This document shows, one piece after another, positions 3 to 15,690 of a DNA stretch of 21,743 bases. The stretch is from a virus. A program made the translations under genes and the position numbers. The notes beneath the pieces were generated by a model that ran no database searches, was not told where the DNA came from, and worked only from the letters and a program-made list of their open reading frames with translations. Every line of letters begins with the position of its first letter. The stretch's first letter is position 1. Location: IMG/VR virus record IMGVR_UViG_3300027686_000045, positions 1 through 21,743 of that record; one strand, 5' to 3'.

Positions 3-2063
3 TCAGAGGTACAAGACGAGATAATGAACTTGTTTATCGACTCACTGCCAAGCACTGCCTTTGCTAAGTCCTTTAAGAATCGAGGCGGATATGATGGCTA
101 TATCCCCGATGCTATACATTCTATGCGGGCAAAGTCCTTTGATCTAGCGCGACAGATTAAGCGGATAGATTACAGCAGTCGTATACGCACAATAGAAGGA
201 GAAATAAAAACAGTTCAACAAGACCTGTCGATAAACAACTCTACTAGTAATACTACAACTGCTATAGGAGATGACCTAATAGCTCGCGCTAAGTTTGCTA
301 CCAGTGGGGCAGACCTCAAAAGTATAGAAGGCTATGTAAAGAACATTAACCAAGTAGCGTTTATATACACTATTGGCTTTAACGCTTCATCAGCACTTGT
401 TAACCTTAGTCAGTTACCTTTGTTTGTTGGCCCTATGCTAGGCGCTGAATTCGGACATATGAAGACGGGCAAGGTAATGACGGAAGCTATGTCTCTAGTG
501 AAAAGCTCTGGTAACAACATAGACAGTTACTTTGACATAGCTCAAGATAATGACGTTGATTCTAAAACTTTTGGTGAAGTTACCTACACACTAAGAGAGG
601 GGCTAGACCCTAAGATAGTTGCGGAGTACGGGCCACTAACTACCTTGATTACTATGGCTTCAAAAAGATCGTATCTAACGCAGTCGTACATATCAGATGC
701 TATGGGGCTGGACGAAAATACTAGTACGTTTGAGTTTATAAAAGATAAACTTGGGAAGGAGAAGTCGGGACGGATAGATCGTGGCAATGCTTTCCAGAAG
801 GGGTTAAATACCGTATCTTCTACCTCCGCGATAATGTTCAATGCGGGTGAGCGATTTAACCGTCAGGTAACTCTTCTAGCTGCTTATAAGTTATCTCTGG
901 AGGACATGCAGGCTAAAGAAGCTAAGAAGCCTAAAGACGCTCGTAAGAGTAACACTGAAATGGAGCTAGCGGCTTCTGAAGATGCTCTTTATAAGTCTAT
1001 GGAATACAACGGTGGTGCGGTACTAGAGACAGGCTCTAGAATATCTGCACAAGGTGCTGGCCGCGTTGCGTTTATGTACAAGAACTACGGTTTGCGTATG
1101 TATACCACTATGTTCAAGACAGGCAAGAGAGCGATAGAGCTTCAGTTTTTCCCCCCTAAAAACGAAACAGCCTCCCAAAAAGAAGAGCGGTTACGGCAGA
1201 AGAAAATAGCATGGGCGCAGGTGCGTGCTGTTCAACTATCTTCTCTTTTAGTAGCAGGTGTTGCAGGTATGCCTCTTTACGGAATAGTGACCGCCGCTAT
1301 AGACTTGACCCTAGACGATGACGAGGATGATTCAGATACTGTAGTACGTAAGTACTTAGGAGAAGGTTGGTATAAAGGGCCAGCAGTAGCCGCGCTAGGA
1401 GTAGATTTCTCAAAACGTGTTAGGTTGAATAGCCTCTTGTTTGAAGCTAACAGATACTCTAAAGACCCATCTCTAGAAGAGTCTTTCTTTCATTACTTTG
1501 GTGGCCCCGCAGCCAGTACTATATTACGTGGTGCTCGTTCTGTTAAAGACTTCTCTGATGGCGAGGTAGAGCGAGGTATAGAAAGTGCATTGCCCGCAGG
1601 ACTTACAAACATTTTAAGGAACAGCCCTATAGGTCGTTTCCAAAAAGAAGATGGTATGCGGACTAGGCGTGGAGATGTAATATACGATGATGTTACTGCC
1701 GGAGATTTCTTTGCAGGTATGATCGGGTTTCCTCCAGCAGGGTACACGTTTGCTCAAGAACAAACTAACGTAGAGCAACGTATTAGCGGAGCAGTTACTA
1801 AAGAACGATCTAAGTTAATGAAGAGATACTATCAAGCTCGTAGGGATGGGGATTACCCTGAGGGTGCTGCGGTTTTCAAAGAAATGATGGCGTTCGGTAA
1901 GGAACATCCAACTGCCGCGATAAACTATGACTCTTTGAAGCGGTCTTACAACGGACACCAAAGGACAACGGCTAAGATGCACAACGGAACTACGATTAGT
2001 CCTATGATGAAAAGAGTTTTAGAGGAGGAACGGAAAAATTATAGTATGGGCTTTTTCGATTAA
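3..2063 (+). CDS. C-terminal part of a very large phage polyvalent (PLxRFG-type) protein, 5' truncated
   Basis: The reading frame is already open at the window edge: no stop lies before the first ATG at 24, and the residues ahead of it read on smoothly, so the true start is upstream of the window. At least 679 residues remain. The sequence is mostly helical, with a segment around residues 118-141 (NASSALVNLSQLPLFVGPML) and a C-terminal part (RRGDVIYDDVTAGDFFAG, then a basic helical region) that I recognise from memory as typical of the C-terminal ends of giant PLxRFG-domain phage proteins. These are thought to be virion-packaged, possibly injected, multi-domain proteins. A hydrophobic stretch near residues 410-430 (SSLLVAGVAGMPLYGIVTAA) could be membrane-associated. 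It is the only rightward gene and so probably belongs to the virion module. No catalytic motif is visible, and the family assignment rests on remembered resemblance. Confidence 0.6.
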   Translation, partial: SEVQDEIMNLFIDSLPSTAFAKSFKNRGGYDGYIPDAIHSMRAKSFDLARQIKRIDYSSRIRTIEGEIKTVQQDLSINNSTSNTTTAIGDDLIARAKFATSGADLKSIEGYVKNINQVAFIYTIGFNASSALVNLSQLPLFVGPMLGAEFGHMKTGKVMTEAMSLVKSSGNNIDSYFDIAQDNDVDSKTFGEVTYTLREGLDPKIVAEYGPLTTLITMASKRSYLTQSYISDAMGLDENTSTFEFIKDKLGKEKSGRIDRGNAFQKGLNTVSSTSAIMFNAGERFNRQVTLLAAYKLSLEDMQAKEAKKPKDARKSNTEMELAASEDALYKSMEYNGGAVLETGSRISAQGAGRVAFMYKNYGLRMYTTMFKTGKRAIELQFFPPKNETASQKEERLRQKKIAWAQVRAVQLSSLLVAGVAGMPLYGIVTAAIDLTLDDDEDDSDTVVRKYLGEGWYKGPAVAALGVDFSKRVRLNSLLFEANRYSKDPSLEESFFHYFGGPAASTILRGARSVKDFSDGEVERGIESALPAGLTNILRNSPIGRFQKEDGMRTRRGDVIYDDVTAGDFFAGMIGFPPAGYTFAQEQTNVEQRISGAVTKERSKLMKRYYQARRDGDYPEGAAVFKEMMAFGKEHPTAAINYDSLKRSYNGHQRTTAKMHNGTTISPMMKRVLEEERKNYSMGFFD

Positions 2064-2098
2064 AAAAACTCCCTGCCGCCTCGGAAACGAACAGGGAG
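2062..2098 (-). terminator. Intrinsic terminator ending the leftward operon
   Basis: Read on the minus strand, a 7-bp perfect stem (CTCCCTG at 2092-2098, CAGGGAG at 2069-2075; 16-nt loop) is followed at once by seven T (2062-2068). It sits just downstream of the last leftward gene (stop at 2113) and overlaps the stop of the rightward gene. On the plus strand there is no T tract after the hairpin, so it should mainly stop leftward transcription. Confidence 0.85.
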
Positions 2099-2112
2099 AA
2101 AGAGGTGAACTG

Positions 2113-2328
2113 CTACAGTGTACGCCAGACACGTACTCCTAACTTGTCATCCTGTATTATAACTCTAATCTCTAGTTGCCAACACTTACGCTTAAATATA
2201 TTTTTGCACTGTGTGATAGCTTTTTGTGTGTTTATACAGGGTATAAAGACTGAGGCTCCTACTACCATCTTGCCCCAGTTCACTATTACCTTAACCCCGT
2301 CAGGGTCTAGGTCATCCAGTTTAAGCAT
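2113..2328 (-). CDS. Hypothetical 71-aa protein, last gene of the leftward operon
   Basis: Small protein MLKLDDLDPDGVKVIVNWGK and onward, ending LGVRVWRTL. Its ATG overlaps the end of the primase-helicase gene by 8 nt, which suggests translational coupling. The composition is a mix of beta-strand-like hydrophobic segments (VKVIVNW, GASVFIPC, LEIRVIIQ) with basic residues in the middle (KNIFKRK), compatible with a compact nucleic-acid-binding fold, but no named domain is recognised. It lies immediately before the terminator. A weaker open frame on the opposite strand covers the same DNA and was discarded because the minus frame is coupled to its upstream neighbour. Confidence 0.7.
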   Translation of the reverse strand: MLKLDDLDPDGVKVIVNWGKMVVGASVFIPCINTQKAITQCKNIFKRKCWQLEIRVIIQDDKLGVRVWRTL

Positions 2329-5143
2329 CGGTAGGCTCGTCTAAAGGAGTTTTAGAGCAGTCTATAGCTACTACACGGGATGGTGGTAACTGAGTAGAGG
2401 TACCCCTAGTCAGTCTCATAGTTATGCTCCTTGCCGCCATATGTGCTATCAAATCTGCTAAGAACGAACTATAGGTTATATCCTGCCTACCGCACCATGC
2501 TTTTAATGGCTTGGGGGTAAGGTATAACATCTTTGTATCTGTCTCGTACCTACCCACCAGACGAATTCTAGGATCGACTTCTGGTATTACCAGTTCATCT
2601 AGCCCATTGTCTTGTGTACTACGTAAGTCATCAGTACTACGTATCTTTAATATGCTACCCCAGTTCTCGTGTAAGTAGTTGTTTAGTGTTTCCTGTACAG
2701 ATGATCCCATTTCTCCTACGCTACGTAAGTTCTCTTTTAGTAAGCCCAATGAATAGTTCATTAACTTCTTGGGTAAGTAAGGTAGTAGTTCTAACCGATA
2801 AGCTATCATAGCCCCTGTAATAGTACATGCTGCCCCCGCTGACCAAAAACGGTTTTCTGCTTTCAACCCCGCTTCTTTATCTATAGCTTTCTGTACTCTG
2901 TCTAGCAGTATCCTAATTTCTTCTAGGTTATCTATAACGTACTGTATGTATATAATCCCTGCATGACCGTAGAGTATTTCCGCGTTCTGGGCATGTATAT
3001 CCGTAAGGTGCTTAGTCTCTGACTCGTCAAACAACTTCTTAGCCTTTGTTTCTAGCATCCTCTGCGCTTCTGCTTTCGGCATAGCTTTAGCTAAACTTAC
3101 CTTTTCGATAATGCTAGTGTTGCCTGTAGTAACTGTTAGCAGACTCCAAGGCTCTCCCCTAGCACGTTCTGTATTACCTCCACCTGCCATACGGTTTTTC
3201 TGCCTACCCCCAGAGAGTTGGTAGATCATGTCTGAAAGTTCTTCTGGCTTGGCGTTTGTCATCTCATCAATGTAGAGGGGTAAGTTATGGTATACCTCCC
3301 CACGTAACATCCTAGAGTTTTGCGTATCATTCTTGTCTATCACTAGTTCTTTAGGTTTGCCCCACACCGAAGCCCCTACGTACATAGCTGTAGTCTTACC
3401 TAGACCAGATTCAGTACTGTGTACATGCAATCCAGAACAAGCTATAGGACTCAGTGCCATCAAAGGGGAACCGAAGCTTGTAGCTACTATGTACTGGTGC
3501 AGTTCAAACCCATCTCGGTTATAGAAGTTAACCATCTCTTTCCACTCTTCCATAGTGCCGCTTGGCTCAAAGGCATGAAACAAGTCTCTGGTAGGCGTAG
3601 ATGGAGGGTTAGACTCTATGTGATCGGCAAATATTTCTTTATCCCCTAGTACAAAGGACTTAAAGTCTTCCCCAGTCCACCCAAACTGCCTACGGGCGTG
3701 CTGAGTAGCGGTAGTAGCTTGTAACTCGTTTACCCACCTAGTCGTGTAATTCATAATATCATCCATCTTAGTTACAGCTACCCCGTGTGCGGCCATTTGC
3801 TTACGGAACTCTTCTTTAGAAGTAACGGCTGTGAGTGGTACAGTAAACTCTCTGACCCCATCTATAGGCAGGTGGAGGCGCATAACTATACCCTCGCCAG
3901 ATTCGACATCCTGTATACGCTTAACGACATATAAGTCATTGTGATAGACCAACTTCTCGTCTACGTCTCCATCTTCTGTCTTGGTGCGTATGTACACGCC
4001 ACCAGTAGCACCACGGAAATAAGGTTTAGGATACGGTGGTATGGTATATACCTTACTATCCCCAGAGCCTGTTTCCATAGCTACTACGTTATCTTCTTCG
4101 TCTGCTTCTTTGATCCGTTGCCCTAGTACTATAGGAGAACCGATCTTGCCCCAGTGCTTACAGTCTGTACACACGTCCGGCCTGTTGTCATTGAATGTCT
4201 CACACCTGTGAACATGTTTTGTAGTGTCGTACTTGCTATCTGTTTCGTCGGGATCGTAATCATCGTACCCCCGCGATATTTTATGTGCGCCTTCTCTCCC
4301 ACCATCTACACAGTGTTTGATGATAGATACAGCGTCAAACCACAAAGGCTCACTAATCTCGTTAGGGTTCTTTAAGACGTGCGATATCTGAGCACAGCCA
4401 TCTCCCTTACTAGTCTTAGCAATGATATCTTTAAAGTAGTTCTCTCTATTGTTATAGAGTCCCTGCACAACTGCACTAAACTCTTCCACCATACGTTCGG
4501 GGACTGGTATCAAGTCATGTCCAAGCAGTTCTGAAAACGTGTCAAAGTTAACTAGGTCTTGGGTAGTGTTCCCGAAGTACCCTACTTCCGTAGGGGGAGT
4601 AGTCTTATAGTTATGCGTAGAGGGTATACGTAATATCCTAGCCGCATCAGAAGTCACTGAGTGGTCACAGATTAACCCGTGTGTCTTTGTTAGAGCCTTT
4701 AGACGGGAGGCTACTGGGAACCAATCATCGTATACGACAGGTTCAGACAGGTGCCAGTATACGTGTACACCCCGTCCAGAGTTAACAAGCACAGGTGTAG
4801 GCAGTTTTACGGTCTTGCAAAAACTTTGTAGGGCTACTATCGCTTCTTCCTGCGTAGCATACCCCTTGCCTTCTTTGTCTTTAACGTCACCACAGTCTAT
4901 GTCAAAAAAGAATGACTGTAACTTGTGTACGTTATCAACCTTCCGTGAGGTTGGTTCTTTAAAACTTGCGAGAGCAAAGTAACAATCGTATCCGTCTGTA
5001 TTCAGTTCGTGCGCTTTGTCTATTAACTGATCTATCTTAGAGTAAAACTTTTGTTGTATACGATCAGTCTTCTTGTTATGCGCCCAAATACAGTAGGAGC
5101 CGCTGTCGGCTAAAGCCCTCTGCAAAAATGATTTAGTATTCAT
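2321..5143 (-). CDS. Primase-helicase fusion (AEP-type primase + DUF927/P-loop helicase-like), 940 aa
   Basis: Probable replicative primase-helicase. The N-terminal part carries the three archaeo-eukaryotic primase (AEP) signatures: FFFDIDCGD with D81 and D83, SGRGVHVYW at 122-130 with H127, and RILRIPSTHNYK at about 169-180. A putative zinc site follows (H312, C314, C325, C328). The C-terminal half has a Walker A-like ESGLGKTT at about 578-585 and Walker B LYIDE at about 623-627, followed by a GNTS motif, as in DUF927-type helicase-like domains. In phages such fusions prime and unwind at the fork. The start ATG at 5143 is preceded by CGGAT; the gene follows the ssDNA-binding protein after an 89-bp gap with a palindrome. 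Key residues of both domains look intact. Domain names are from motif recognition only. Confidence 0.85.
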   Translation of the reverse strand: MNTKSFLQRALADSGSYCIWAHNKKTDRIQQKFYSKIDQLIDKAHELNTDGYDCYFALASFKEPTSRKVDNVHKLQSFFFDIDCGDVKDKEGKGYATQEEAIVALQSFCKTVKLPTPVLVNSGRGVHVYWHLSEPVVYDDWFPVASRLKALTKTHGLICDHSVTSDAARILRIPSTHNYKTTPPTEVGYFGNTTQDLVNFDTFSELLGHDLIPVPERMVEEFSAVVQGLYNNRENYFKDIIAKTSKGDGCAQISHVLKNPNEISEPLWFDAVSIIKHCVDGGREGAHKISRGYDDYDPDETDSKYDTTKHVHRCETFNDNRPDVCTDCKHWGKIGSPIVLGQRIKEADEEDNVVAMETGSGDSKVYTIPPYPKPYFRGATGGVYIRTKTEDGDVDEKLVYHNDLYVVKRIQDVESGEGIVMRLHLPIDGVREFTVPLTAVTSKEEFRKQMAAHGVAVTKMDDIMNYTTRWVNELQATTATQHARRQFGWTGEDFKSFVLGDKEIFADHIESNPPSTPTRDLFHAFEPSGTMEEWKEMVNFYNRDGFELHQYIVATSFGSPLMALSPIACSGLHVHSTESGLGKTTAMYVGASVWGKPKELVIDKNDTQNSRMLRGEVYHNLPLYIDEMTNAKPEELSDMIYQLSGGRQKNRMAGGGNTERARGEPWSLLTVTTGNTSIIEKVSLAKAMPKAEAQRMLETKAKKLFDESETKHLTDIHAQNAEILYGHAGIIYIQYVIDNLEEIRILLDRVQKAIDKEAGLKAENRFWSAGAACTITGAMIAYRLELLPYLPKKLMNYSLGLLKENLRSVGEMGSSVQETLNNYLHENWGSILKIRSTDDLRSTQDNGLDELVIPEVDPRIRLVGRYETDTKMLYLTPKPLKAWCGRQDITYSSFLADLIAHMAARSITMRLTRGTSTQLPPSRVVAIDCSKTPLDEPTDA

Positions 5144-5170
5144 ATCCGCATCCGAGAGGTAGGGTAGCAG

Positions 5171-5186
5171 GGGTGCATATGCACCC
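5171..5186. promoter_or_regulatory. 16-bp perfect palindrome GGGTGCATATGCACCC in the gap before the primase gene
   Basis: It lies in the 89-bp gap between the ssDNA-binding protein gene and the primase-helicase gene. It shares the core GCATATGC flanked by G and C runs with a second palindrome at 21118-21129 in the leader of the whole operon. On the minus strand it follows a small inverted repeat (GGATACTAATCC). It could be an operator or an RNA hairpin; on the plus strand it is followed by TTTT, but no rightward gene ends here, so a terminator is unlikely. Confidence 0.45.
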
Positions 5187-5232
5187 TTTTCGGATTAGTA
5201 TCCTAGCTACAGGTTATTTAAAGGGGGAGGTT

Positions 5233-5973
5233 TTACCCGTCCCAATTATCAACGATGGATGCTAAGTCTTTGTCTTCTTCTTTTGGTGCTACGGACTTCT
5301 TCTTAGCGGTTTTCTTAGGTTGCTCTATAGGAGCTTCTTCTGCGGTATCATCTCCAAACAAGTCATCAGATACTACTGGAGCTTGAGTAGCATTAACTTC
5401 TGCTGAAGAAATATTTGCAGACACTGTTTCAAAGGGATTGTCACTCTCTAACTCAAACCCATCTGCTACTACGCCAAACGGTGAAGCGGCTTCCAAAGGC
5501 AGATACTTAATAACCTGTACAGCACGTAAGCGAACAGATACACCTGCGTCACGCATGTTATAGGGATAGAAAGTAACAGCGACATTAGCCGTACTGCCTG
5601 TAGTAAGTTTAAAGTCTTCTGGTAACTCCTTACTCTTAGCGTCAAACTGCTTCGGGGGGATGGTAGCATCTTTACCGTAGGCCGCTTTAAGTACAGCCTT
5701 ACCTACAAACATGCCGTCTTCTTGCTTCTCAAAGGGAAAGTCGATCTTCTCAGGCCAACCTTTTTCTTTAGCCTTCTGGTAAGCCGCGTCCATCTGCCCA
5801 TAAAGAGCCTTGGCTTTATCCTTGTCCATACGGAACTTGGTTTCGTACTTAGCGCCATCGTCAAATGGGGTACAGGGTACGCTCTTACCGTTATCACCCG
5901 CCGTCTGGTCAAACTTATACGGCTGATTGATGCGGGGGTAGAGTATCTCTACATTTTCAATTATATAACTCAT
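5233..5973 (-). CDS. Probable single-stranded DNA-binding protein (DUF2815-like)
   Basis: 246 aa. The N-terminal two thirds (about residues 1-165) has the pattern of phage DUF2815/gp2.5-like OB-fold proteins: an N-terminal strand MSYIIENVEILYPRI, a central GSTANVAVTFYPYNMRDAGVSVRLRAVQVIKYL beta region (split here: GSTANVAVTFYPY at 126-138 and VSVRLRAVQVIKYL at 145-158), then a low-complexity charged tail. The tail has a lysine patch (KKTAKKK) and ends acidic with an aromatic residue (EEDKDLASIVDNWDG), like SSB tails that recruit partners. A motif SPFGVVADGFEL (164-175) recurs in the upstream neighbour. The start is supported by AAAGGAACATAGT before ATG. It lies between the four-cysteine protein and the primase, as expected for a replication SSB. 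Confidence 0.7.
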   Translation of the reverse strand: MSYIIENVEILYPRINQPYKFDQTAGDNGKSVPCTPFDDGAKYETKFRMDKDKAKALYGQMDAAYQKAKEKGWPEKIDFPFEKQEDGMFVGKAVLKAAYGKDATIPPKQFDAKSKELPEDFKLTTGSTANVAVTFYPYNMRDAGVSVRLRAVQVIKYLPLEAASPFGVVADGFELESDNPFETVSANISSAEVNATQAPVVSDDLFGDDTAEEAPIEQPKKTAKKKSVAPKEEDKDLASIVDNWDG

Positions 5974-5974
5974 A

Positions 5975-6643
5975 CTATGTTCCTTTACTGGTTGCGTTTA
6001 ATTCAAAACCTTCTACTACTGAGAAAGGAGACTTAGGTTCCGCAAACACATCTAGGCTTATCGCCTTCAATGTATCGGGGTGGTTCTTTAACTCTGAAAC
6101 CTTTTCTGCCTCGCCTTCATTCAGTGACCGTATCGGTTTAAAATAAAGTTTAGGGATCGGACTTTGTTCATCAAAATATACTCGCGTAATGATGCGAGTT
6201 GCTACAGAACCTCTGCTAGACAAGAACTTAACATAGTCTTGCATCGGCATGTGTCCACCGTTACCCCTACCATATATAGATGTAGCAGGTAACTGTAGTT
6301 GGTACACCTCGTCTAGTTGACCATCAAACACGACAGCTAGGCGTTGGGCAAACCTACAAGCACGTCCACGGTTACTCCCTGACCCACGTATATTCTGTGG
6401 GCAATCCATACAACGGGCGGCTTGCTTTTTCTCTTGGGGTACATCTACAGAAGGTCTTTGCGTATCTGCTGACCAACACGTTGGCACTGCTGACCTGTTA
6501 GGGTCGTAAGCATTCTCAAAGTATGAGCGTGAGACAGGAGCCGCATTAACAACTATGATGTCCTTAGAGTCTTCTTCTATAATAGCTGTTTCGTTGCCAA
6601 CCACAATAGAAAACTTCCTACCGTACAAACTAATTCGACGCAC
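5975..6643 (-). CDS. Hypothetical four-cysteine (zinc-site-like) protein next to the SSB
   Basis: 222 aa starting with GTG (TAG-T-GTG junction with the upstream gene; GAGG upstream). C56, C78, C81 and C96 form a C-x21-C-x2-C-x14-C arrangement that looks like a structural zinc or Fe-S site, in the context PTCWSAD, CMDCPQN and GRACRF. Downstream there is a beta-rich region and a C-terminal SPFSVVEGFEL (205-215) nearly identical to the motif in the adjacent SSB-like protein. I know similar proteins from phage genomes beside ssDNA-binding proteins but no established function. A second ssDNA-binding or SSB-partner protein is a reasonable inference. Confidence 0.75.
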   Translation of the reverse strand: MRRISLYGRKFSIVVGNETAIIEEDSKDIIVVNAAPVSRSYFENAYDPNRSAVPTCWSADTQRPSVDVPQEKKQAARCMDCPQNIRGSGSNRGRACRFAQRLAVVFDGQLDEVYQLQLPATSIYGRGNGGHMPMQDYVKFLSSRGSVATRIITRVYFDEQSPIPKLYFKPIRSLNEGEAEKVSELKNHPDTLKAISLDVFAEPKSPFSVVEGFELNATSKGT

Positions 6644-6644
6644 A

Positions 6645-6971
6645 CTACATATCCTCGTCGAACAAATCTTCCATCTCTGCGGGAGAAGCGGCTTCTTTTC
6701 TCCTAATGTAACTTTTTACCTTGTCTTCAGCCTCTTCTTGCAAGGAGCGCACTGTAGCTTTAGCACCTTCTTCTGTTGGGTCAACCCTAGCGCCATTAGA
6801 CAACAGCGAGTCAGTAACATCAGAAATCTTAAACCTGTACGTACTGCCTACTTTTATAAAGGAGTTGGGAGATATGTGTTTTCTACGTACCCACGAGCGT
6901 ATAGTCGATACCGATACTGAAAAGTGGTCGGCTATCTCTTCTATAGGTACAAATGATTCTTTGTTTTCCAT
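6645..6971 (-). CDS. Excisionase/MerR-type helix-turn-helix protein
   Basis: 108 aa. Residues 8-57 read as a classic HTH_17/excisionase-type winged helix: VPIEEIADHFSVSVSTIRSW, then RRKHISPNSFIKVGSTYRF, then KISDVTDSLL. The C-terminal half is charged and probably helical, with an acidic end (EMEDLFDEDM). The ATG shares a base with the TAA of the upstream gene (TAATG), so translation is probably coupled. It could be a regulator, a DNA-architecture protein or an excisionase-like factor. No integrase is visible in the window, so a recombination role is not supported here. Confidence 0.75.
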   Translation of the reverse strand: MENKESFVPIEEIADHFSVSVSTIRSWVRRKHISPNSFIKVGSTYRFKISDVTDSLLSNGARVDPTEEGAKATVRSLQEEAEDKVKSYIRRKEAASPAEMEDLFDEDM

Positions 6972-7363
6972 TATTTTTTCCTTACCGCAACTGCGTATTC
7001 TGAATCTACGTTAAGACCTTTTGGCACAAGGTCGGGGTTATCTTCTAAAAACTGCCGAACATTACCTTGGTTAAGACGCTTGTCAAAAAACTCTGGTACC
7101 TCGTTCTCCATAACAAATTTGTACATAGACTCCCAATCGCTAGTCCAGTACCTAGTCTTAACTGATCTATAAAACAGCCCTGCTGATGTCTTAACACTTT
7201 CTACACCTTGCTCCTCGCAATACTTGAGTAGTGCTTCTTTTATCTTCTCAAGATTTTCTGCAAGTACGGAGTCCTTATCTTTAAACTCCGCTGTCAGTTC
7301 CGCTCTCTTTATCTTTATCTTCAAGTAAGTCTCGGTCAGCTTCTCAGGGGTTACATTACTCAT
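6971..7363 (-). CDS. Conserved-looking phage protein, Gam/Gp157-like layout, 130 aa
   Basis: I chose the ATG at 7363 because it has a strong ribosome binding site (GGAGGAAGT then ATG); a longer frame reaches 7420 but lacks one. The N-terminal half (MSNVTPEKLTETYLKIKIKR and onward) is a predicted amphipathic helix or coiled coil. The second half contains VKTSAGLFYRSVKTRYWTSD and a helical region ending GLNVDSEYAVAVRKK. Long helices followed by a short beta region recall Gam or Gp157-type nuclease-inhibitor proteins, but only in layout. It lies immediately downstream of the SNF2 helicase gene and ends in a TAATG overlap with the HTH gene. Confidence 0.75.
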   Translation of the reverse strand: MSNVTPEKLTETYLKIKIKRAELTAEFKDKDSVLAENLEKIKEALLKYCEEQGVESVKTSAGLFYRSVKTRYWTSDWESMYKFVMENEVPEFFDKRLNQGNVRQFLEDNPDLVPKGLNVDSEYAVAVRKK

Positions 7364-7412
7364 ACTTCCTCCAATCGTTGACGAGATGTATACTTTAGTG
7401 AGTCTTTGTGCG

Positions 7413-8948
7413 CTAGTCAAGTATTTCTTTATAAAGGTCGATCATCTTTGTGTGAACGTCTATTCTACTGTCTAATAGCGAGTAAACGCGCTTTTCTACG
7501 TTCGATCCTTGTAGCTGAACAACGGTACACTTGTGGTCTTGGCCTGACCTATGTACACGAGCGTTAGCTTGCAGGTAGGTTTCAAGGGAACTTGTTGGCC
7601 CCCACCAGACTACAGTGTTAGCTGCTGTTAACGTAACACCATGTGCTGCGGCTTGAGGTTGTATTACCAGCACCTTTGGATCATCTTGTTCTTGGAACTG
7701 TTTAAATATTCTCGTGCGGTTCGGTGCGCTAACATCGCCACGGATTACTTCAGTAGATATTTTATCCTCGCGTAGCTTGTTAGTAAGTATGTCTATGGTG
7801 TGCTTAAACGGCACGAACACTAACACCTTCTTACTAGATTCGTCTATGACTTCTCGTAGCACCTTGTACCTATGCTTAATATCAAACTCTAACGCCCCTC
7901 CATCGTCTGTGTACACTGCGCCACTAGATATTTGGAGTAGCTTGTTCATACTTACAGCCGCATTGACCGCAGTTATCTGCTCACCTGACGCTTGCATTAT
8001 CATCCGGTCTTTTAGTTCTTTGTAATACTTCTTCTGTTGACGTGTTAACTCCACCTCTCGCTTAACGTATACCATCGGTGGTAGGTCAAGGCATTCTTCT
8101 TTTGTAAATCGTATGGCAGGCTGTAACGCGTTATAGACTGTCTCTGTAGCGGTTTCTTTGGCTACCCACTTAAAGTTAGTTACCTTACGCATGACTTGAT
8201 CGCGGAAAGAACCAAAGAAGTTAGGTACTCTTTTGGGGTTTATTAGTTTAGCTAGGCCATACGCATCCAACGGACTCTGTGCCGCAGGTGTACCTGTCAT
8301 CATCCATAGCCAAGTATTCGGTTTGATTAACCTGTTTAAAGTTTTCCATCGGGTAGTCTGTGGGTTTTTGTAATGCGTAGCTTCGTCTACAATTATTAGG
8401 TCAAAGCCCCCATTAGCGATAGTGTCCTCGACGATAGCTAGCCCATCGTAATTTATTACTACGTAGTCAGCACCGTTGTTGATAATCTTCCTACGCTTCT
8501 CTGCCGCACCATAGGCTACATCGACAGTCCTGTGCATGGCAAACTTAAACAAATCATCTCGCCATGCGGAATCCATAATAGATAGGGGGCATATGACCAA
8601 CACGCGGTTTATCTTGCCAACATTAAGAAGGTAGTCTGATGCCCATATAGCACTAGCGGTCTTGCCTGTACCCTGCTCGTTAAAGCAAAACGACTTCCTG
8701 TTAAGTGTTAGGAAGGATGCGGTAGTCTTCTGGTGGTCGAACGGTGCGTACTGTCCTGTCCATTCATACTTACCCTCTATAGGAGAAGGTGCCTTAATAT
8801 TTAAGTTGCGTAGTACATGAGTCTCTTCTATGCCCCAGTTAACTAGCACTTGGTTATCCGATAACTCTTTACTCTTTGGTATTACCGTAGTCACCTGACT
8901 AGGGTTGCGAAGGCGTAACAATAACGCCCTGTTGTCTACTATCTGCAT
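7413..8948 (-). CDS. SNF2-family DEAD/H helicase, 511 aa
   Basis: ATP-dependent DNA translocase or helicase. From the chosen start (MQIVDNRALLLRLR), motif I is EQGTGKT at 91-97, motif II is DEATH at 188-192 and motif III is TGTPA at 218-222. The C-terminal RecA-like lobe has VLVFVPFKHTIDIL and ends with motifs V and VI (HGVTLTAANTVVWW, then QANARVHRSGQ). Both lobes are complete. The ATG at 8948 overlaps the end of the nuclease gene by 10 nt; an upstream in-frame start exists at 8984, but the exact duplication of the 5' end at 9403-9445 also begins at this MQIV ATG. Phage SNF2 proteins usually sit in replication or recombination modules, as here. The first 14 codons are duplicated upstream (see separate entries). 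Confidence 0.92.
   Translation of the reverse strand: MQIVDNRALLLRLRNPSQVTTVIPKSKELSDNQVLVNWGIEETHVLRNLNIKAPSPIEGKYEWTGQYAPFDHQKTTASFLTLNRKSFCFNEQGTGKTASAIWASDYLLNVGKINRVLVICPLSIMDSAWRDDLFKFAMHRTVDVAYGAAEKRRKIINNGADYVVINYDGLAIVEDTIANGGFDLIIVDEATHYKNPQTTRWKTLNRLIKPNTWLWMMTGTPAAQSPLDAYGLAKLINPKRVPNFFGSFRDQVMRKVTNFKWVAKETATETVYNALQPAIRFTKEECLDLPPMVYVKREVELTRQQKKYYKELKDRMIMQASGEQITAVNAAVSMNKLLQISSGAVYTDDGGALEFDIKHRYKVLREVIDESSKKVLVFVPFKHTIDILTNKLREDKISTEVIRGDVSAPNRTRIFKQFQEQDDPKVLVIQPQAAAHGVTLTAANTVVWWGPTSSLETYLQANARVHRSGQDHKCTVVQLQGSNVEKRVYSLLDSRIDVHTKMIDLYKEILD
8906..8948 (-). repeat. 43-bp direct repeat, copy within the SNF2 gene start
   Basis: Identical over 43 bp to 9403-9445. This copy is the first 14 codons of the intact SNF2 gene. 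It contains a small GGCGT/ACGCC hairpin. The two copies flank the nuclease gene. Confidence 0.97.
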
Positions 8949-9358
8949 AATTTTACAAACTCCGTCATTGGTATGTACACACACGGTTCTACATCGTAAC
9001 TATCGTTTCTATCGTACCTACCCCCTAAACGTTTCTCGTACCCCTTTCTTATCACCACTGCGAATACTCCGTCAGTAAACCTTACCACTAGCAAGGGCAT
9101 AATCTTATCCTTCCAACTTATCTGTAACATGCTATTAGCCTTACTAGCACTTATCATATAAGTAGGGTACTTATCACTAGCGTTAGTCCTAGCTTTGATT
9201 TCTATAACCGCTACAGGTTTACCCTCTTTGAGTAACAAGCCATCTGTGGAAGCAAAGGGTTCGGATTTCTCATACGTAAACTCTCCACTAGCCTCAATGT
9301 AATCTTTTATATACCCCTCATTACTACGGTCAAAGTCGTTCTCGTATGTGGGTCGCAT
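8939..9358 (-). CDS. PD-(D/E)XK-type nuclease, 139 aa
   Basis: The core STDGLLLKEGKPVAVIEIKA matches the restriction-endonuclease-like fold: D39, then E53-x-K55 after a beta strand. An N-terminal helix precedes it, and strands (MPLLVVRF, GVFAVVI) follow, as expected for a small single-domain nuclease. It has its own site GGAGGAATAA directly before ATG 9358. Its last codons and stop lie inside the 5' end of the SNF2 gene, so the stop is supplied by helicase sequence. The gene is flanked by 43-bp direct repeats of the SNF2 start, which suggests it is an inserted (mobile or homing-like) cassette. It could serve phage DNA metabolism or attack competitor DNA; specificity cannot be read from the sequence. 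Confidence 0.75.
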   Translation of the reverse strand: MRPTYENDFDRSNEGYIKDYIEASGEFTYEKSEPFASTDGLLLKEGKPVAVIEIKARTNASDKYPTYMISASKANSMLQISWKDKIMPLLVVRFTDGVFAVVIRKGYEKRLGGRYDRNDSYDVEPCVYIPMTEFVKLCR

Positions 9359-9445
9359 TTATTCCTCCGTTGCGAAACAGCATGAAGTGGGTGTCCACGC
9401 CATGCGAAGGCGTAACAATAACGCCCTGTTGTCTACTATCTGCAT
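9359..9445 (-). pseudogene. Truncated duplicate of the SNF2 gene start (28 codons)
   Basis: Reading leftward from ATG 9445 the first 14 codons are identical to the SNF2 gene start (MQIVDNRALLLRLR). The frame then leaves helicase sequence, continues 14 codons (MAWTPTSCCFATEE) and stops at TAA 9359-9361, directly abutting the nuclease ATG. The ATG is preceded by CAGGACAATAAAAAG, an acceptable ribosome binding site, so it may still be translated as a leader peptide coupled to the nuclease. Best explained as the disrupted original 5' end of the helicase gene. Confidence 0.7.
9403..9445 (-). repeat. 43-bp direct repeat, outer copy
   Basis: Exact copy of 8906-8948. The distance between copies is 497 bp, holding the nuclease gene. 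Confidence 0.97.
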
Positions 9446-9460
9446 CTTTTTATTGTCCTG

Positions 9461-9646
9461 TTAACGTATTAGGTGGTAGGTATCTATACCCGCAGCTCCC
9501 GGGCAGGGATAAGTTCTTAAAAATAAGCCCTGCTTCGCCCACAGATAGAGCCACGTCTGCATATTACCGTATGCCATATCCGTAGATACGACACATCCTT
9601 TGGACTTCCTAGATTTTATACGTCGAATTAACTGCCTCGGAGGCAA
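9461..9646 (-). CDS. Small winged-helix-like protein (TTG start), 61 aa
   Basis: An open frame from TTG 9646 (an in-frame stop lies three codons upstream) to TAA 9461. The pattern is that of a minimal winged helix: basic helix (RQLIRRIKSRKSKG), STDMAYGN, helix NMQTWLYLWAKQGL, then a wing FLRTYPCPGAAGIDTYHLIR. The stop is followed after 15 nt by the ATG of the duplicated SNF2 start, the spacing expected for operon neighbours, which argues for a real gene. Against it: a non-ATG start with no clear Shine-Dalgarno site, and an alternative ATG at internal codon 24. A regulator role is inference. Confidence 0.4.
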   Translation of the reverse strand: MPPRQLIRRIKSRKSKGCVVSTDMAYGNMQTWLYLWAKQGLFLRTYPCPGAAGIDTYHLIR

Positions 9647-9850
9647 CGTACTTTATTTTATGACGCATCTAAGCAACGTCTCACACACACACATACCAAC
9701 CAAGTATTAAGTAGATACCAATTAATCATTATGAATAACTGTTAACTCTATGTAGAATGCCGCCTCCAAACAAATACTCCAGAGGCAACCGTGATCATTT
9801 ACATGTTAATTTTCGTTATACTATCCCTAGGCGCAGTAGCTAAACAAGAC
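9647..9850. other. 204-bp gene-free spacer within the operon
   Basis: It holds a short hairpin (TGCCTCGGAGGCA at 9632-9644 on its edge), a further GCCTC/GAGGC pair (about 9761-9785) and a short CA run (9681-9692). A weak minus-strand promoter-like pair, TTGTTT (9842-9847) and TAGTAT (9818-9823), is 18 bp apart. No convincing gene is seen; very short frames exist on both strands. As the largest gap inside the operon it is the likeliest place for an internal promoter. Confidence 0.35.
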
Positions 9851-10111
9851 CTATGAGTAGTTCCGTCTTCTGTTAGCAGAAGAACTTTCTATACGTACAC
9901 CATCTTTGTTACTACCACCTCGGCTCAATGCTACGTTATGACTAACGTCCTTACCTTCGCGCTTGTCGGCCTTGCCGTTATTGTTAGCATCTCTGCCTTC
10001 TCTGTCTATCTTGCGCCTAGCCCGTTGTCGTTCCATACGGGCGAAGTGCGCTTTACTCCCAACAGGAGGGTTCTTCTGTTTCTTGCGGTCTGCTTTATTT
10101 TTGTACGGCAT
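9851..10111 (-). CDS. Small basic protein, 86 aa, HNH-like tail region
   Basis: Starts MPYKNKADRKKQ; the ATG at 10111 overlaps the upstream stop as TAATG and has GGGAGAAACTA before it, so I prefer it to a longer frame reaching 10162. The first 60 residues are very rich in Arg and Lys (RMERQRARRKIDREGRDANN). The C-terminal region VSHNVALSRGGSNKDG followed by SSANRRRNYS resembles the metal and DNA-facing part of HNH-type proteins seen in phages, but a full HNH core is not present. DNA binding is likely from charge; nuclease activity is only a possibility. Confidence 0.7.
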   Translation of the reverse strand: MPYKNKADRKKQKNPPVGSKAHFARMERQRARRKIDREGRDANNNGKADKREGKDVSHNVALSRGGSNKDGVRIESSSANRRRNYS

Positions 10112-10782
10112 TAGTTTCTCCCATTGTAAACACATTCTGTTACTACGCAGTGACGTTTGCATAGTCCACTTTGATTAGCATTCCACACATCTTTTATGTA
10201 CGCTTGCTCCATACGATTATAATCGGCAAGCCACTTAGCCCAAAGGCTCGGTGCTACATCATAGTCATATTGTTCTTTCACTAACTCGTTACACACTACG
10301 AACACTAATCCACCACGTACTGTTTTTATGTCGGGGTAGTGTTTGAATACTGCCAGAGCCATAAGCTCCAACTGCCCCTTGTCAGCGTACCTAGTGTTCT
10401 TGCTTGTCTTGTAATCTATAACCCATGCTACCTTAGATTCTCTATCGAGGATAACTAAATCCGCTATGCCTCTCCACCACACGTTATCATCTCTGAATCC
10501 ACATGGCTCTAGGTTCTCTGTGAGTCCCATCTCCAACTCACATATCTTCTCCCCCTTCTTATCTATGAGAGAGTCTAGCACTGCCTTACCATACATAAAC
10601 TTCTCTGGCAGAGGCGTACCATCTCTAACATATTCCTCTGCCGCTAAGTGAAACGCTGTACCGTAGTACATCGCTTCTGTCTCAGGTTCCTTGTAACTCT
10701 TAGTCACCTTCAGATGGTAGAACTTTTTAGGACACTGCTCAAACGACTTAATCTTTGAGAACGACCACGGCTTTATATTCAC
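10111..10782 (-). CDS. Cas4/RecB-like PD-(D/E)XK exonuclease with four Fe-S-type cysteines
   Basis: 223 aa; N-terminal WSFSKIKSFEQCPKKFYH is typical of RecB/Cas4/DUF2800-type nucleases. Active-site candidates are H45, D108 in GIADLVIL, D123 and K125 in VIDYKTSK, and Q137 (QLELMA). C17 with C208, C212 and C217 near the C-terminus gives the one-plus-three cysteine layout of Cas4/AddB [4Fe-4S] nucleases. The start is GTG at 10782 overlapping the upstream TGA (GTGA). In phage replication modules such nucleases process DNA ends with PolA and SSB. There is no CRISPR locus nearby, so I do not call it cas4. Confidence 0.85.
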   Translation of the reverse strand: MNIKPWSFSKIKSFEQCPKKFYHLKVTKSYKEPETEAMYYGTAFHLAAEEYVRDGTPLPEKFMYGKAVLDSLIDKKGEKICELEMGLTENLEPCGFRDDNVWWRGIADLVILDRESKVAWVIDYKTSKNTRYADKGQLELMALAVFKHYPDIKTVRGGLVFVVCNELVKEQYDYDVAPSLWAKWLADYNRMEQAYIKDVWNANQSGLCKRHCVVTECVYNGRN

Positions 10783-11021
10783 TTGGTTTGATCCTTTTCT
10801 ATTGCTTCAGCCGCTTCGTATAGTCCTTCTATAAGACTATGTAACATCTCCACATCAAGTATAAGTTGCCCCTTGTGCATGGTGCTACCTACAGTCTCTA
10901 CTTGCTCTACAAATACAAGGATATCTTCGTCTTTTTCTCCCACGATTATTTGTAGGTAGGCGTTGGTAGTCTCAACGTCCTTAGTCTTCCTAAACTTGTT
11001 AATATCTATGACATTACTCAT
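10779..11021 (-). CDS. Hypothetical 80-aa protein following DNA polymerase
   Basis: Chosen start MSNVIDINKF at 11021, which overlaps the last codons of the polymerase gene and has GGAG 12 nt upstream; another ATG in frame at 11039 is possible. The N-terminal VIDINKFRK is followed by a beta segment (AYLQIIVGEKDEDILVFVEQ) and a C-terminal acidic helix (LHSLIEGLYEAAEAIEKDQ). No named family recognised. It is coupled downstream to the Cas4-like nuclease by a GTGA overlap, so it may act with polymerase or nuclease. Confidence 0.7.
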   Translation of the reverse strand: MSNVIDINKFRKTKDVETTNAYLQIIVGEKDEDILVFVEQVETVGSTMHKGQLILDVEMLHSLIEGLYEAAEAIEKDQTK

Positions 11022-12855
11022 CAGGTTCACAATCTCCATATGCTTTAGCTACCCCAGACTCGCAGTCTAGTGGTAGCCCTTCTGCCCAGTCCGGTGTTTT
11101 ACGCATACACATCTCTATGTATGCCTGTGCTTCTTTAGCCTCTTCGATAGGTACGCAACATACAATGGAGTCATGTACGGTAAGCACTGCGCGATACTTC
11201 TTGGTTATATCTACTAACTGATCACCAATTATACACCTTGCGTACGCTTGGCATATGTTCTCTACCACCTTACCACCATAGATTCTGGTTCGGCTTCGCC
11301 TAGTCTGGTAATCAAACTCAATACCTTTAGTGCCTTGTGTCCACGATAGATCGTCATAACGCATTCTTAGCCCTGACGGCAGTAGTGTCCATGCATTACC
11401 TTCGTCCGACCCGTACTTAACTATACCTCTTGGGCCAAAGGTACCGTAGTTACCACGAGACATATCAACTAGCATTGCCTGACATGTTCTCCATAGCTTA
11501 TCTATATTGGCATTGGCTTCCCGATATATCTTAACAACTCGACGACCTTCAGTCAGTGGCATGTCTACACCAAACGTCTTTAGCTGTTCTACAAATCGTT
11601 CTGCTCCCATACCGTAACCACAACCTAGGATAGTAGTCTTACCAACAAACCTCTGCGCCTTAGTTACCTTGTCCTCTGGTACGTTATATATAACAGCCGC
11701 CATCTTTACATACACATCTTCTTTGTTAGCGAATGCTGAGACCAGCTCCGACTCATCGGCAAGCCACGCTAGTACCCTTGCCTCAATCTGCGAGGAGTCA
11801 CAGTCCACTAATATGTACCCTTCAGGCGCAATGATACTCTTCTTTAACTTCTTACCATGTTGCCCACGGCTAGGTAGATTCTGTATGTTGATCTTGTCAT
11901 CGCCTCCCCACCTACCAGTATGAGCGGCATAGTACCTTATAGGTACGGGCATTAGTCCACGATTAGCAATGCCTATGAATCTCTCGGTGCGTGCCTCTTC
12001 AAGGGTACTCTTAGTCCCTAAACGTGTTACCACTAGAGACTGTACGCGAGGGTCTGGATGGTCAAGTAAAGCCTTAAACCCTTCGTCTGACTTGGCGAAG
12101 GCGAACGTCTGCTTACCTGTAGTGAGACTAACCTTCATAGGGGGTATTACACCTAGCCCTTTAAGCAACTCAGCAAACTTAGGGTTGCTCATTAATTCTT
12201 TCTTAGTTACACCAGAAGCTGTTATGAGGTCTTCTTTAATTTGCCTAGTGCTACCAAGGTGTTCCTCTAACATAGGAAGGTCTAGGTCTATCATAGGCTC
12301 GGTGAACATACGCAGGGTACGATCTATTATACGTAACTCTTGTTTCGGAAAATCCTTACCCATTATAGAGAACAACTTATATGTTAGTTCCACATCGTTA
12401 ACGCAGTAGTCTCCGTACTTGTCTAGTTCTTCTTCGGTAAAATCGCTACGTCTTTTTCCAATAGCATCAAGTACTTCTGTTCCCTTGTCCCCAATAGCAT
12501 ATCGTTGAGCAAGTACAGCGAGAGAGCCGCCAACTTCCACGCCATGCAAAGCACGAGCAATACATAAAGTGTCAGTAAGTAAGCGAGGGTGAACATCAAA
12601 CGTCCAAGACAAAATAGCGCCATCAAACAAAGTATTGTGAGCCAAAAGGACAGAACTAGCCCAGTCAAACGTGTGGAGGTAATCTTTGATCTCAGCATGA
12701 GTGCCGCTTGCCCATTCGGTGTTCCCGTTGTTTATCTTAACACCTACACCGATCACCTCAAAGCGAGGATCACGGATATAGGATTCGGTTGTCATCTTGC
12801 GTAATGAAAAGTCTTTGTCGTAATACGTTTCAAAGTCTACGGTAATAAGATCCAT
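11014..12855 (-). CDS. polA: Family A DNA polymerase with 3'-5' exonuclease, 613 aa
   Basis: Replicative phage DNA polymerase. The DEDD exonuclease domain is at the N-terminus: DFET with D7 and E9, then LLAHNTLFDGAIL, then YCVNDVEL. Polymerase motif A is CDSSQIEAR with D353; motif B is RFVGKTTILGCGYGM with R402, K406 and L410; motif C is VHDSIV with H561 and D562. No 5'-3' exonuclease domain is present, as usual for phage enzymes. Aligning motif B with E. coli Pol I puts L410 at the position of Phe762. The ATG at 12855 lies 3 nt after the upstream stop and has no strong Shine-Dalgarno site, so translation may depend on coupling. All catalytic residues are present. Confidence 0.95.
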   Translation of the reverse strand: MDLITVDFETYYDKDFSLRKMTTESYIRDPRFEVIGVGVKINNGNTEWASGTHAEIKDYLHTFDWASSVLLAHNTLFDGAILSWTFDVHPRLLTDTLCIARALHGVEVGGSLAVLAQRYAIGDKGTEVLDAIGKRRSDFTEEELDKYGDYCVNDVELTYKLFSIMGKDFPKQELRIIDRTLRMFTEPMIDLDLPMLEEHLGSTRQIKEDLITASGVTKKELMSNPKFAELLKGLGVIPPMKVSLTTGKQTFAFAKSDEGFKALLDHPDPRVQSLVVTRLGTKSTLEEARTERFIGIANRGLMPVPIRYYAAHTGRWGGDDKINIQNLPSRGQHGKKLKKSIIAPEGYILVDCDSSQIEARVLAWLADESELVSAFANKEDVYVKMAAVIYNVPEDKVTKAQRFVGKTTILGCGYGMGAERFVEQLKTFGVDMPLTEGRRVVKIYREANANIDKLWRTCQAMLVDMSRGNYGTFGPRGIVKYGSDEGNAWTLLPSGLRMRYDDLSWTQGTKGIEFDYQTRRSRTRIYGGKVVENICQAYARCIIGDQLVDITKKYRAVLTVHDSIVCCVPIEEAKEAQAYIEMCMRKTPDWAEGLPLDCESGVAKAYGDCEPDE

Positions 12856-13562: not shown

Positions 13563-13850
13563 CTATCCTCCTAGGATTAGTTCAATGTCATTCATGTTGT
13601 CTTCGTTTACTACGCACGCGATTCCGTACGCTTCGCTTATCTCTTTGAGATTCTTTTCCTGTAGTGCTGTTGGCATGTTCTTACCTGCCTTACACTCTAT
13701 CCCAAAGAACTTACCTTTGTAGCATCCAACTATGTCAGGTACTCCGCTCTTACCGTATCCCCCAGTAGCAGGGAAAAAGTAGTAGCACCCTAACGTCTTT
13801 AGCTGTTCAACTATCTTCTTCTTTACCTTCCCTTCCGGTGTCATCGCCAT
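13563..13850 (-). CDS. VRR-NUC domain nuclease, 95 aa
   Basis: A single VRR-NUC (PD-(D/E)XK superfamily) domain: GVPDIVG with D39, then FFGIECKAG with E52 and K54. The N-terminal helix TPEGKVKKKIVEQLKTLG precedes a FPATGGYGKSG loop typical of the family. Stand-alone phage VRR-NUC proteins act as structure-specific or junction nucleases. The start at 13850 has GAGGGG upstream; an ATG two codons later is equally possible. The gene starts inside the small membrane protein gene (44-nt overlap) and ends 1 nt before the DUF3310 ATG. Confidence 0.9.
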   Translation of the reverse strand: MAMTPEGKVKKKIVEQLKTLGCYYFFPATGGYGKSGVPDIVGCYKGKFFGIECKAGKNMPTALQEKNLKEISEAYGIACVVNEDNMNDIELILGG

Positions 13851-14004
13851 CGTCTGCCCCTCGTGTTGATACCAGCCCCTCGTGCCGCCTTGCCGCCCAT
13901 GCACGCTCTTTGTCTCCTACTATCAGTGAGGCACCATAGGTCATCACACAGAAACCTACTATCAACACCACACCAAACAAACATGACAATACTTGACCTA
14001 ACAT
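13807..14004 (-). CDS. Small single-pass membrane protein, 65 aa
   Basis: Residues 1-29 (MLGQVLSCLFGVVLIVGFCV and onward) form one hydrophobic helix, followed by a charged cytoplasm-like tail ending in acidic residues. Ribosome binding site AGGAGTGAGTAT precedes ATG 14004, and a copy of the dispersed palindrome lies just upstream of it. The 3' part overlaps the VRR-NUC gene in another frame. Function unknown; size and layout would also fit a lysis accessory or a host-membrane effector, but nothing else supports that. Confidence 0.6.
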   Translation of the reverse strand: MLGQVLSCLFGVVLIVGFCVMTYGASLIVGDKERAWAARRHEGLVSTRGADDGDDTGREGKEEDS

Positions 14005-14014: not shown

Positions 14015-14323
14015 CTATATGGTAGGGGTTACCCCTACCTTACGGGGCAAAACCCAATATGTGTCGGCGTTAATACGCGCACCAACACCCTCTAACCATG
14101 TGTATTTGGTAGTTCCATACGTACATATACCTAGTACAGCCAAGCGATTAGTCATCCACTCAGGTATATCTTCATAACAATAATACCCATCACTAATCGG
14201 CGAGTCAATACAATCTATGCCAATGCATACTACATTGATGCCATTGATGTCGTTATGTACTTTAACGCGGTATACACTGTCTTCTGATGGGGTATCAAAG
14301 GGAAACGTGTTAAGCGTAGACAT
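14015..14323 (-). CDS. Hypothetical 102-aa protein, paralogous to the C-terminus of its upstream neighbour
   Basis: Residues 53-92 (IPEWMTNRLAVLGIC, later YTWLEGVGAR and TYWVLP) match the C-terminal region of the 328-aa protein encoded immediately upstream (LAALSIC at 300-306, YVEEVGHR, LYYVYA). Its own last residues (VGVTPTI) are encoded by a copy of the dispersed palindrome, so the original protein probably ended nearer residue 95. The ATG overlaps the upstream gene by 14 nt. Unknown function; probably a stand-alone copy of a small alpha/beta domain. Confidence 0.75.
   Translation of the reverse strand: MSTLNTFPFDTPSEDSVYRVKVHNDINGINVVCIGIDCIDSPISDGYYCYEDIPEWMTNRLAVLGICTYGTTKYTWLEGVGARINADTYWVLPRKVGVTPTI
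14021..14039. repeat. Dispersed palindrome, copy 1
   Basis: Perfect GGTAGGGGT-T-ACCCCTACC (9-bp arms). It encodes the end of the 102-aa protein and lies 17 nt upstream of the ATG of the small membrane protein, just before its ribosome binding site. Confidence 0.95.
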
Positions 14324-15296
14324 AGTACAGTGTCTCCATGTTGCGGTGTCCTACCTCTTCAACATAGTCCCCTACATCACATATAGATAGTGCGGCTAAC
14401 TTAGACATAATGTCAGAGGGTAGAGTCTCAGCCCTATACCTAGGGGTGCCATGTAAACTGTCGTACAGGCTGTCTGTATCCCACCCACTCATTACAGATA
14501 TGTCAGGGATACGTGCAACGTCAAAGGTCTGCTCGCCTAACCTCTCGTACACCCTTACACAGTAAGCTGTTACAGGTAGCGCCTTCTGCTCGTCTAGGGT
14601 TGCCATAATACTACGAGCGTTAGCTACATCCTTGTGGAATTCGGCAGATAGGAAGTGTTGCCCAGAGTCCATCTTATGGCACAACTCTAGCCATATGGGT
14701 GCTTGTCTGACGCGGCTTACATTGCAGGTAAGATTGATCTTACTTAACGCTTTTGTAAGATCATCAGAGAATGTTTCACCAAAATCCTTTACCTTGTCTA
14801 AGGTATCGCGGTAGCTACGTCTTATAACTTCTTGGTGGCTTATGGGTAGTAGATGCCTCTTGGCATTGCGTACGGCAGTGTGTACATTCTCTGACATCTT
14901 CATGCGGTGCTGTACCCTGTAGCTGTCACACTTGTTGTTTTCTATGTTCTGTGCAAACACTACGTACTTGGGATCACTGTTCCGCGATATGCTGAAGTCT
15001 CCGTAGCCTATAAAGCCCAGAACGTATAAGTCGTTAGGGTCGTATACAAAGTACCGCGTCCTTCCATACACCCCTCTACTGTCAAAAGCAAACTTGTAAG
15101 CGTGTCGTAACCCTTTAGATACAGCTAGTAAGTAATCCCTAACCTCTGTAGGTATCCGACTAACGGGGGGGCCGTCATCGGTACTCATCCATCCAGTTAC
15201 AGGGACTTCTAGGTCTTTATTTGTGAAGGTCGTATAGCTTGTATTTGATTTTATCTGCGCTACTAAAGGTACGTTGTGGTCTCCATTAAAACTCAT
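14310..15296 (-). CDS. Hypothetical 328-aa protein
   Basis: Start ATG 15296 with GGAGAAATATT upstream. No known domain is recognised. The N-terminal part contains VPVTGWMSTDDGPPVSRIPT and beta-rich segments (RYFVYDPNDLYVLGFIGYGD); the middle is helical and charged (SFRDTLDK-like region near residues 155-195); the C-terminal 90 residues contain the module duplicated in the downstream 102-aa protein (LPSDIMSKLAALSIC, then YVEEVGHR). A stable hairpin and a palindrome copy lie between it and the upstream gene. Proteins of this type are common, unexplained cargo in phage early regions. Confidence 0.8.
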   Translation of the reverse strand: MSFNGDHNVPLVAQIKSNTSYTTFTNKDLEVPVTGWMSTDDGPPVSRIPTEVRDYLLAVSKGLRHAYKFAFDSRGVYGRTRYFVYDPNDLYVLGFIGYGDFSISRNSDPKYVVFAQNIENNKCDSYRVQHRMKMSENVHTAVRNAKRHLLPISHQEVIRRSYRDTLDKVKDFGETFSDDLTKALSKINLTCNVSRVRQAPIWLELCHKMDSGQHFLSAEFHKDVANARSIMATLDEQKALPVTAYCVRVYERLGEQTFDVARIPDISVMSGWDTDSLYDSLHGTPRYRAETLPSDIMSKLAALSICDVGDYVEEVGHRNMETLYYVYA

Positions 15297-15317
15297 AATA
15301 TTTCTCCGATTTTTGGG

Positions 15318-15342: not shown

Positions 15343-15346
15343 TGTT

Positions 15347-15675: not shown

Positions 15676-15690
15676 GTCTCTCTCCTTTAG

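Follow-up and report, generated by a model that had tools for sequence, protein, structure and literature searches.

Comparison of full and empty loci shows that a cassette carrying a PD-(D/E)XK nuclease gene entered the start of a phage SNF2-family helicase gene very recently, as a 497-bp insertion into a genome like that of the relative L207. The same comparisons show the nuclease gene to be horizontally mobile: some genomes have it and others lack it at a single fixed site, and it spreads separately from the remaining genome. A free-standing mobile nuclease of the PDDEXK_14 family that homes to the 5′ end of phage SNF2 helicase genes would probably account for these observations, with one-sided repair at a microhomology producing the duplication described below.

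A nuclease cassette at the start of the helicase gene

The window, the whole stretch of DNA analysed, is a 21.7-kb IMG/VR virus fragment. Its features around the insertion are as follows.

7413–8948 (−): SNF2-family helicase, 511 aa, the target gene (Pfam SNF2-rel_dom, E 1.2e-24; Helicase_C, 1.8e-17)
8906–8948 (−): inner 43-mer copy, start of the intact helicase and stop codon of the nuclease (repeat and ORF reading)
8939–9358 (−): PD-(D/E)XK nuclease, 139 aa, 420-bp frame (Pfam PDDEXK_14, PF24579, E 1.8e-26; phrog_7141)
8949–9445 (−), equivalent to 8906–9402 given the repeat: the 497 bp that the window has in excess of L207 and L208 (alignment to both)
8960–8963 (−): GGAG in the final codons of the nuclease, candidate new helicase ribosome-binding site (sequence reading)
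9359–9402 (−): leader of 44 bp from the outer copy to the nuclease ATG, probably imported with the nuclease, GGAGG at 9364–9368 (not in the empty L207, L208 and L004–L014)
9359–9445 (−): 28-codon minicistron, MQIVDNRALLLRLRMAWTPTSCCFATEE-stop, a product of the insertion (read directly from the sequence)
9380–9405 (−): predicted RNA hairpin, GCATGG.C.GTGG(ACAC)CCAC.T.TCATGC (folding and covariation)
9403–9445 (−): outer 43-mer copy, the 5′ end of the recipient's original helicase gene (same sequence as in the empty L207/L208 allele)
9446–9465 (−): original ribosome-binding context of the outer copy, GTTAACAGGACAATAAAAAG (read from the window)

The two copies (8906–8948 and 9403–9445) are identical at 43 of 43 bases, lie 497 bp apart from start to start and match at 48 of 50 bases when extended. 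An exact 43-base repeat cannot be a chance occurrence in 21.7 kb. The identical structure is found at 100% identity in three further IMG/VR contigs (3300006947_000106, 3300006193_000426 and 3300008221_000428) and is therefore not an assembly artefact. The shared bases comprise helicase codons 1–14 and the first base of codon 15. A sequence-only reading had described a repeat enclosing a PD-(D/E)XK nuclease gene, an outer copy with an operon-like ribosome-binding site, and an inner copy that supplies both the nuclease stop and the helicase start. Each of these elements was confirmed: Pfam assigns the enclosed gene to PDDEXK_14, the outer copy follows GTTAACAGGACAATAAAAAG, and the nuclease frame, lying between the copies, terminates within the inner one (TTATGCAGATAG), which also contains the start of the helicase ORF, 8948 (−).

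The insertion would also have rearranged the translation signals. The minicistron starts in the outer copy with the old ribosome-binding site, and its TAA directly abuts the nuclease ATG, a contact that makes translational coupling possible. The GGAG at 8960–8963, in a region kept as ACGGAGTT in most nuclease-bearing loci, is likely the new ribosome-binding site of the helicase and would act on its translation.

Two classes of element were rejected for the insert. A group I intron or intein does not fit, since the helicase frame is complete downstream, positions 8800–9800 have no Rfam match and the 497 bp are nearly all nuclease and leader. An insertion sequence or transposon does not fit either, the nuclease being the only ORF in the insert and no terminal inverted repeats being found among those listed.

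Elsewhere in the window, a large ORF at 24–2063 (+), at the border of oppositely directed gene blocks, resembles DarB-like antirestriction proteins in their C-terminal part (phrog_10089, E 2.5e-27). The palindrome TAGGGGTNACCCCTA occurs at nine places in 14023–21670 (e.g. 14023, 15349, 19280, 20231, 20749, 21087, 21587 and 21650), mostly near gene boundaries, and is possibly an operator or terminator family. A perfect 27-bp tandem duplication at 20855–20908 repeats nine codons in the ORF at 20767–21153 (−).

Empty alleles, joints and the leader

The sequence-only reading had further proposed that a nuclease cassette had entered the helicase gene at about codon 14, duplicating its 5′ end and leaving the helicase intact, and had called for a search for uninterrupted relatives with one 43-mer. 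Such relatives were found in L207 and L208, which are 98–99% identical to the window around the site. L207 (13.5 kb) matches positions 1–8955 at 99.2% (8.96 kb) and 9403–12566 at 97.7% (3.17 kb), and 2.6 kb of L208 agree with this. In L207 and L208 alike, GTTAACAGGACAATAAAAAG leads directly into a single helicase start, with one 43-mer and no nuclease; the difference between the window and L207 at the site is exactly 497 bp, a clean insertion. These alleles support the proposed history, which is refined in two respects: the cassette also brought a leader with hairpin and ribosome-binding site, and only the window's lineage has the 43-bp duplication. About 70 more close helicase loci (proteins 80–97% identical) lack the nuclease. 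Full and empty alleles co-occur within single samples (L083 full and L016 empty in 3300006193; L084 full and L019 empty in 3300008221). A single crossover of two divergent phages was rejected, as one and the same empty lineage is the closest match of both flanks, which are 98–99% identical to L207. No closer donor was found for the window nuclease than relatives at about 75% DNA identity.

At the left joint, recipient sequence (...CGCCTTCGC) meets donor-type TTCGC-GTGACGTGG... (L088 form: TTTTTCGCGTGACGTGGACACCC). The joint is a 5-bp microhomology, TTCGC, in helicase codons 13–14, 42 bases into the gene. At the right joint, the sequence at the nuclease end (...GACGGAGTTTGTAAAATT) adjoins the helicase ATG; the form in nuclease-bearing relatives is GACGGAGTTCGTACAGAT-ATG. 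From the helicase ATG, the inner copy and the sequence that follows are recipient-like (43/43, then about 99% against L207), and the helicase frame is therefore complete after the insertion. This identity and the closely matching flanks place the return to recipient sequence on the right most likely at the helicase ATG or right beside it, unless the donor shared the identical 43 bases, in which case the inner copy could come from the donor.

The leader of the window is nearly identical to that of L088. Within the window's clade, the empty genomes lack it and both nuclease-bearing lineages (the window and L015/L088) have it; thus, the leader probably arrived there with the nuclease. The 5′ arm of its hairpin consists partly of the final bases of the outer copy. 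Four leaders fold at −17 to −20 kcal/mol (z −2.7 to −4.0), and across 18 distinct sequences 97% of cells are paired, with a covariation of 0.264, a level reached by none of the shuffled alignments (0.191). The many G-U pairs point to a hairpin formed in RNA. Among 36 distinct contexts of the leader, two are cut by the contig end; in the others helicase or nuclease lies immediately downstream, and the hairpin never precedes any other gene. In this phage group, the conserved hairpin with its ACAC loop, which matches no Rfam family, is part of the helicase operon's 5′ leader. It may be a translational control element.

Spread of the nuclease gene at a fixed site

In other lineages, the nuclease lies exactly at the helicase start codon, without the 43-bp duplication. 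L086 has flanks nearly identical to those of the empty L033 and L037, with the nuclease at the start codon, no duplication beyond the ATG and one leader SNP linked to the nuclease. L087 likewise shows an exact insertion relative to L044, with several linked leader variants. These standard loci have the leader/ATG junction split by the nuclease, whereas the outer copy of the window keeps that junction up to codon 14. Nuclease and helicase also adjoin in L094–L098, whose helicase proteins are only 66–69% identical. In L045 and L201, the leader and the last 17–18 nuclease bases are fused through a CGGAG common to both; judged by this junction, the fusion is a deletion scar, the mark of nuclease loss. 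The nuclease 3′ end left over in the scars of L045/L200 and L201 serves as the helicase ribosome-binding region.

Nuclease presence has to change 9–10 times across a helicase tree of 96 rows, nine of these changes being forced by well-supported branches. Divergence of the two genes is discordant, most plainly at synonymous sites. Among L078, L118/L060, L086, L087 and L032, nuclease DNA is 96–99% identical versus 80–88% for the helicases, and L095 and L092 have nucleases at 93% and helicases at 68–69%. Synonymous divergence (dS) of nuclease versus helicase is 0.064 versus 0.815 for L078/L118, 0.164 versus 1.217 for L078/L086, 0.092 versus 0.780 for L086/L087, and 0.248 versus 2.414 for L092/L095. 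In a control on nine pairs, no other 411-bp window of shared sequence reaches the identity of the nuclease. The high-identity block begins at the hairpin edge, about −47, and ends near +15 in the helicase; in L092/L095 its limits are about −100 and +5. The flanks are thus co-converted, leader variants travelling with the nuclease.

The gene is optional between conserved genes, spreads independently of its neighbours and has an intact active site, features by which free-standing homing endonucleases are recognised. Its optional, scattered presence, its low dS and the loss scar therefore indicate a nuclease that is mobile at a fixed site in the manner of these enzymes. The homing analogy drawn in the sequence-only reading gains strength from distribution and divergence, as far as sequence comparison reaches.

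The protein itself is under selection, since the frame is open in all 26 close nucleases checked and dN/dS is about 0.1. The active-site set E14, D39 and E53-x-K55 is intact in the window, and these residues, together with R57, K73 and GGR.DR.D..D.E, are invariant or nearly so in the alignment. In PHROGs, phrog_7141 is without known function, and Pfam labels PDDEXK_14 as putative. The structure model (pLDDT 88, pTM 0.82) is predicted to resemble archaeal Hjc resolvases best (2wcw, Z 13.2 over 111 residues; 1gef, Foldseek E 7.5e-05), followed by RecU and the nuclease domains of SPARDA, with I-Ssp6803I (2ost) lower at Z 7.6. At the sequence level, the nuclease has no match to the Hjc family, PF24579 being the sole family above cut-off. 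A sequence search against solved structures gave only an insignificant match (E 0.36) and none to I-Ssp6803I. Distant PDDEXK_14 relatives occur in 154 Pseudomonas phage records; in the one phage examined, the gene lies among small genes with no adjoining helicase. One scan of bacterial and archaeal genomes returned no relative, and no near relatives at the DNA level were found among isolated phages. We know of no homing function in the PDDEXK_14 family. The window carries two further nuclease genes, one PDDEXK_1/Cas4-like exonuclease (10111–10782) and one Hjc/phrog_93 endonuclease (13563–13904), so the PDDEXK_14 gene is its third.

Proposed homing, its alternatives and its parallels

Under the homing hypothesis, the nuclease would make a double-strand break in or near an uninterrupted helicase start during co-infection, and repair of the break would copy the cassette from the donor phage. 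In most recipients, leader and helicase start would both be homologous, giving insertion exactly at the ATG. The recipient lineage of the window has no hairpin leader and would have offered homology on the helicase side only. The other end would then have been joined at TTCGC, found both in codons 13–14 and just before the donor-type hairpin, and the first 43 bp would be duplicated as a consequence. With its complete reading frame downstream of the insert, the helicase would stay whole, and the terminal codons of the nuclease would give it a likely new ribosome-binding site. One-sided homing in phage T4 yields microhomology junctions of this kind (PMC2988022).

Several observations count against homing. 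The closest predicted fold is that of a Hjc resolvase (Z about 13), with the homing enzyme I-Ssp6803I lower (Z 7.6), and the Pseudomonas phage relative examined is not at a helicase. In addition, the outer copy retains the uninterrupted start up to codon 14, so that, with a target confined to this stretch, the phage would be cut by its own nuclease. The target would therefore have to reach past codon 14 or be located in another place, unless the phage is protected in some different way.

The main rival is a history of recombination alone, in which the nuclease is a beneficial accessory or helicase partner (acting, for example, in recombination, in degrading host DNA or in keeping out co-infecting phages). 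The phage's ordinary recombination could move such a gene as well, by way of the short conserved leader and the helicase start and without target cutting, and the duplication in the window would be one illegitimate joint. The predicted Hjc/RecU-like fold, the strong purifying selection on the nuclease, its adjacency to the helicase even in the distant L094–L098 and the conserved flanking segments usable as crossovers all suit this history. However, the exchanged tracts are only about 470 bp and nothing else was exchanged in the same pairs, an unusual pattern if recombination is undirected. The repeated gains at a single position, and the scattered presence with losses that left scars, also speak against it. 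Recombination alone accounts less well for the sole exchange of a 0.5-kb segment, and we regard it as unlikely while giving it real weight.

A tandem duplication of the helicase 5′ end that preceded the entry of the nuclease, or an assembly chimera, would each yield two identical 43-mers. Both are highly improbable, given that no relative has a tandem 43-mer without the nuclease, that the left joint coincides with microhomology of donor and recipient, and that four contigs agree. Marginally less probable still is that nuclease and helicase are an old neighbour pair with many losses: the association in L094–L098 despite divergent helicases, and at least one loss scar (L045/L201), fit such a pair, but nuclease dS is several times below helicase dS in the same pairs, and the window lineage is a net gain, with target duplication, relative to an empty genome 98–99% identical to it. 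The dS and empty-allele data refute an old pair for the loci examined, and losses occur in addition. The sequence-only reading had named an old conserved neighbour as one finding that would refute its proposed history; this holds in part for the family, as L094–L098 show, and fails for the insertion in the window.

Homing thus remains the preferred reading, and several known systems bear on it. Free-standing homing genes are optional insertions between conserved genes (PMC6083498), and their placement near essential genes is among the subjects of one survey (PMC10448857). T4 SegF, SegG, MobE and their kin (PMC2988022, PMC6083498) share with the gene described here an optional nuclease between conserved genes, a place beside a replication gene, embedding in an operon and spread independent of the genome. 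Unlike those enzymes, which are GIY-YIG or HNH nucleases, the present one is a PDDEXK_14 protein with a predicted Hjc-like fold. It also differs in its position at a start codon, the probable supply of a ribosome-binding site to the helicase and the hairpin leader, and its cleavage activity is putative. One-sided homing of the T4 td intron likewise has one homologous side and microhomology on the other, through illegitimate double-strand-break repair (PMC2988022). However, that is an experimental intron system from which one exon homology was removed, whereas here a natural free-standing gene duplicated 43 bp of its target's start.

The nearest structural parallel is found in the mobile endonuclease ORFs of fungal mitochondria (Allomyces atp6; Glomus atp6, atp9, cox2 and nad3; PMC3630166), in which a duplicated piece of the target preserves its product. 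These elements supply a foreign carboxy-terminal end, whereas the duplicated piece here is a recipient-like 5′ end. Cyanophage F-CphI (PMC6083498) is a phage homing enzyme built on a catalytic domain like that of a Holliday resolvase, as the present nuclease would be if it homes; F-CphI has an Endo VII motif and works with an intron, and the enzyme here has a predicted Hjc-like PD-(D/E)XK domain. A further comparison is with I-Ssp6803I, also small and with a PD-(D/E)XK fold that the model resembles (2ost, Z 7.6), from which the nuclease differs in having no detectable sequence similarity to it and in being structurally closer to Hjc (Z about 13). I-Ssp6803I is encoded by an intron within a tRNA gene.

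A broader proposal, which we put forward tentatively and with somewhat more doubt than confidence, is that PDDEXK_14 is a homing family of Hjc fold that moves with its hairpin leader and ribosome-binding sites, re-equips its target with translation signals and perhaps recognises the hairpin-forming inverted repeat at the insertion point as structured DNA. To our knowledge, such a homing endonuclease family would be new. The matched full and empty alleles, 98–99% identical, suit cleavage and transfer assays. The insertion in the window would be a natural and very recent counterpart of the T4 experiments, in which homing with one-sided homology is finished at a microhomology, here with the helicase kept whole. 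These findings suggest a lifestyle for PDDEXK_14 and phrog_7141, so far putative in Pfam and without function in PHROGs.
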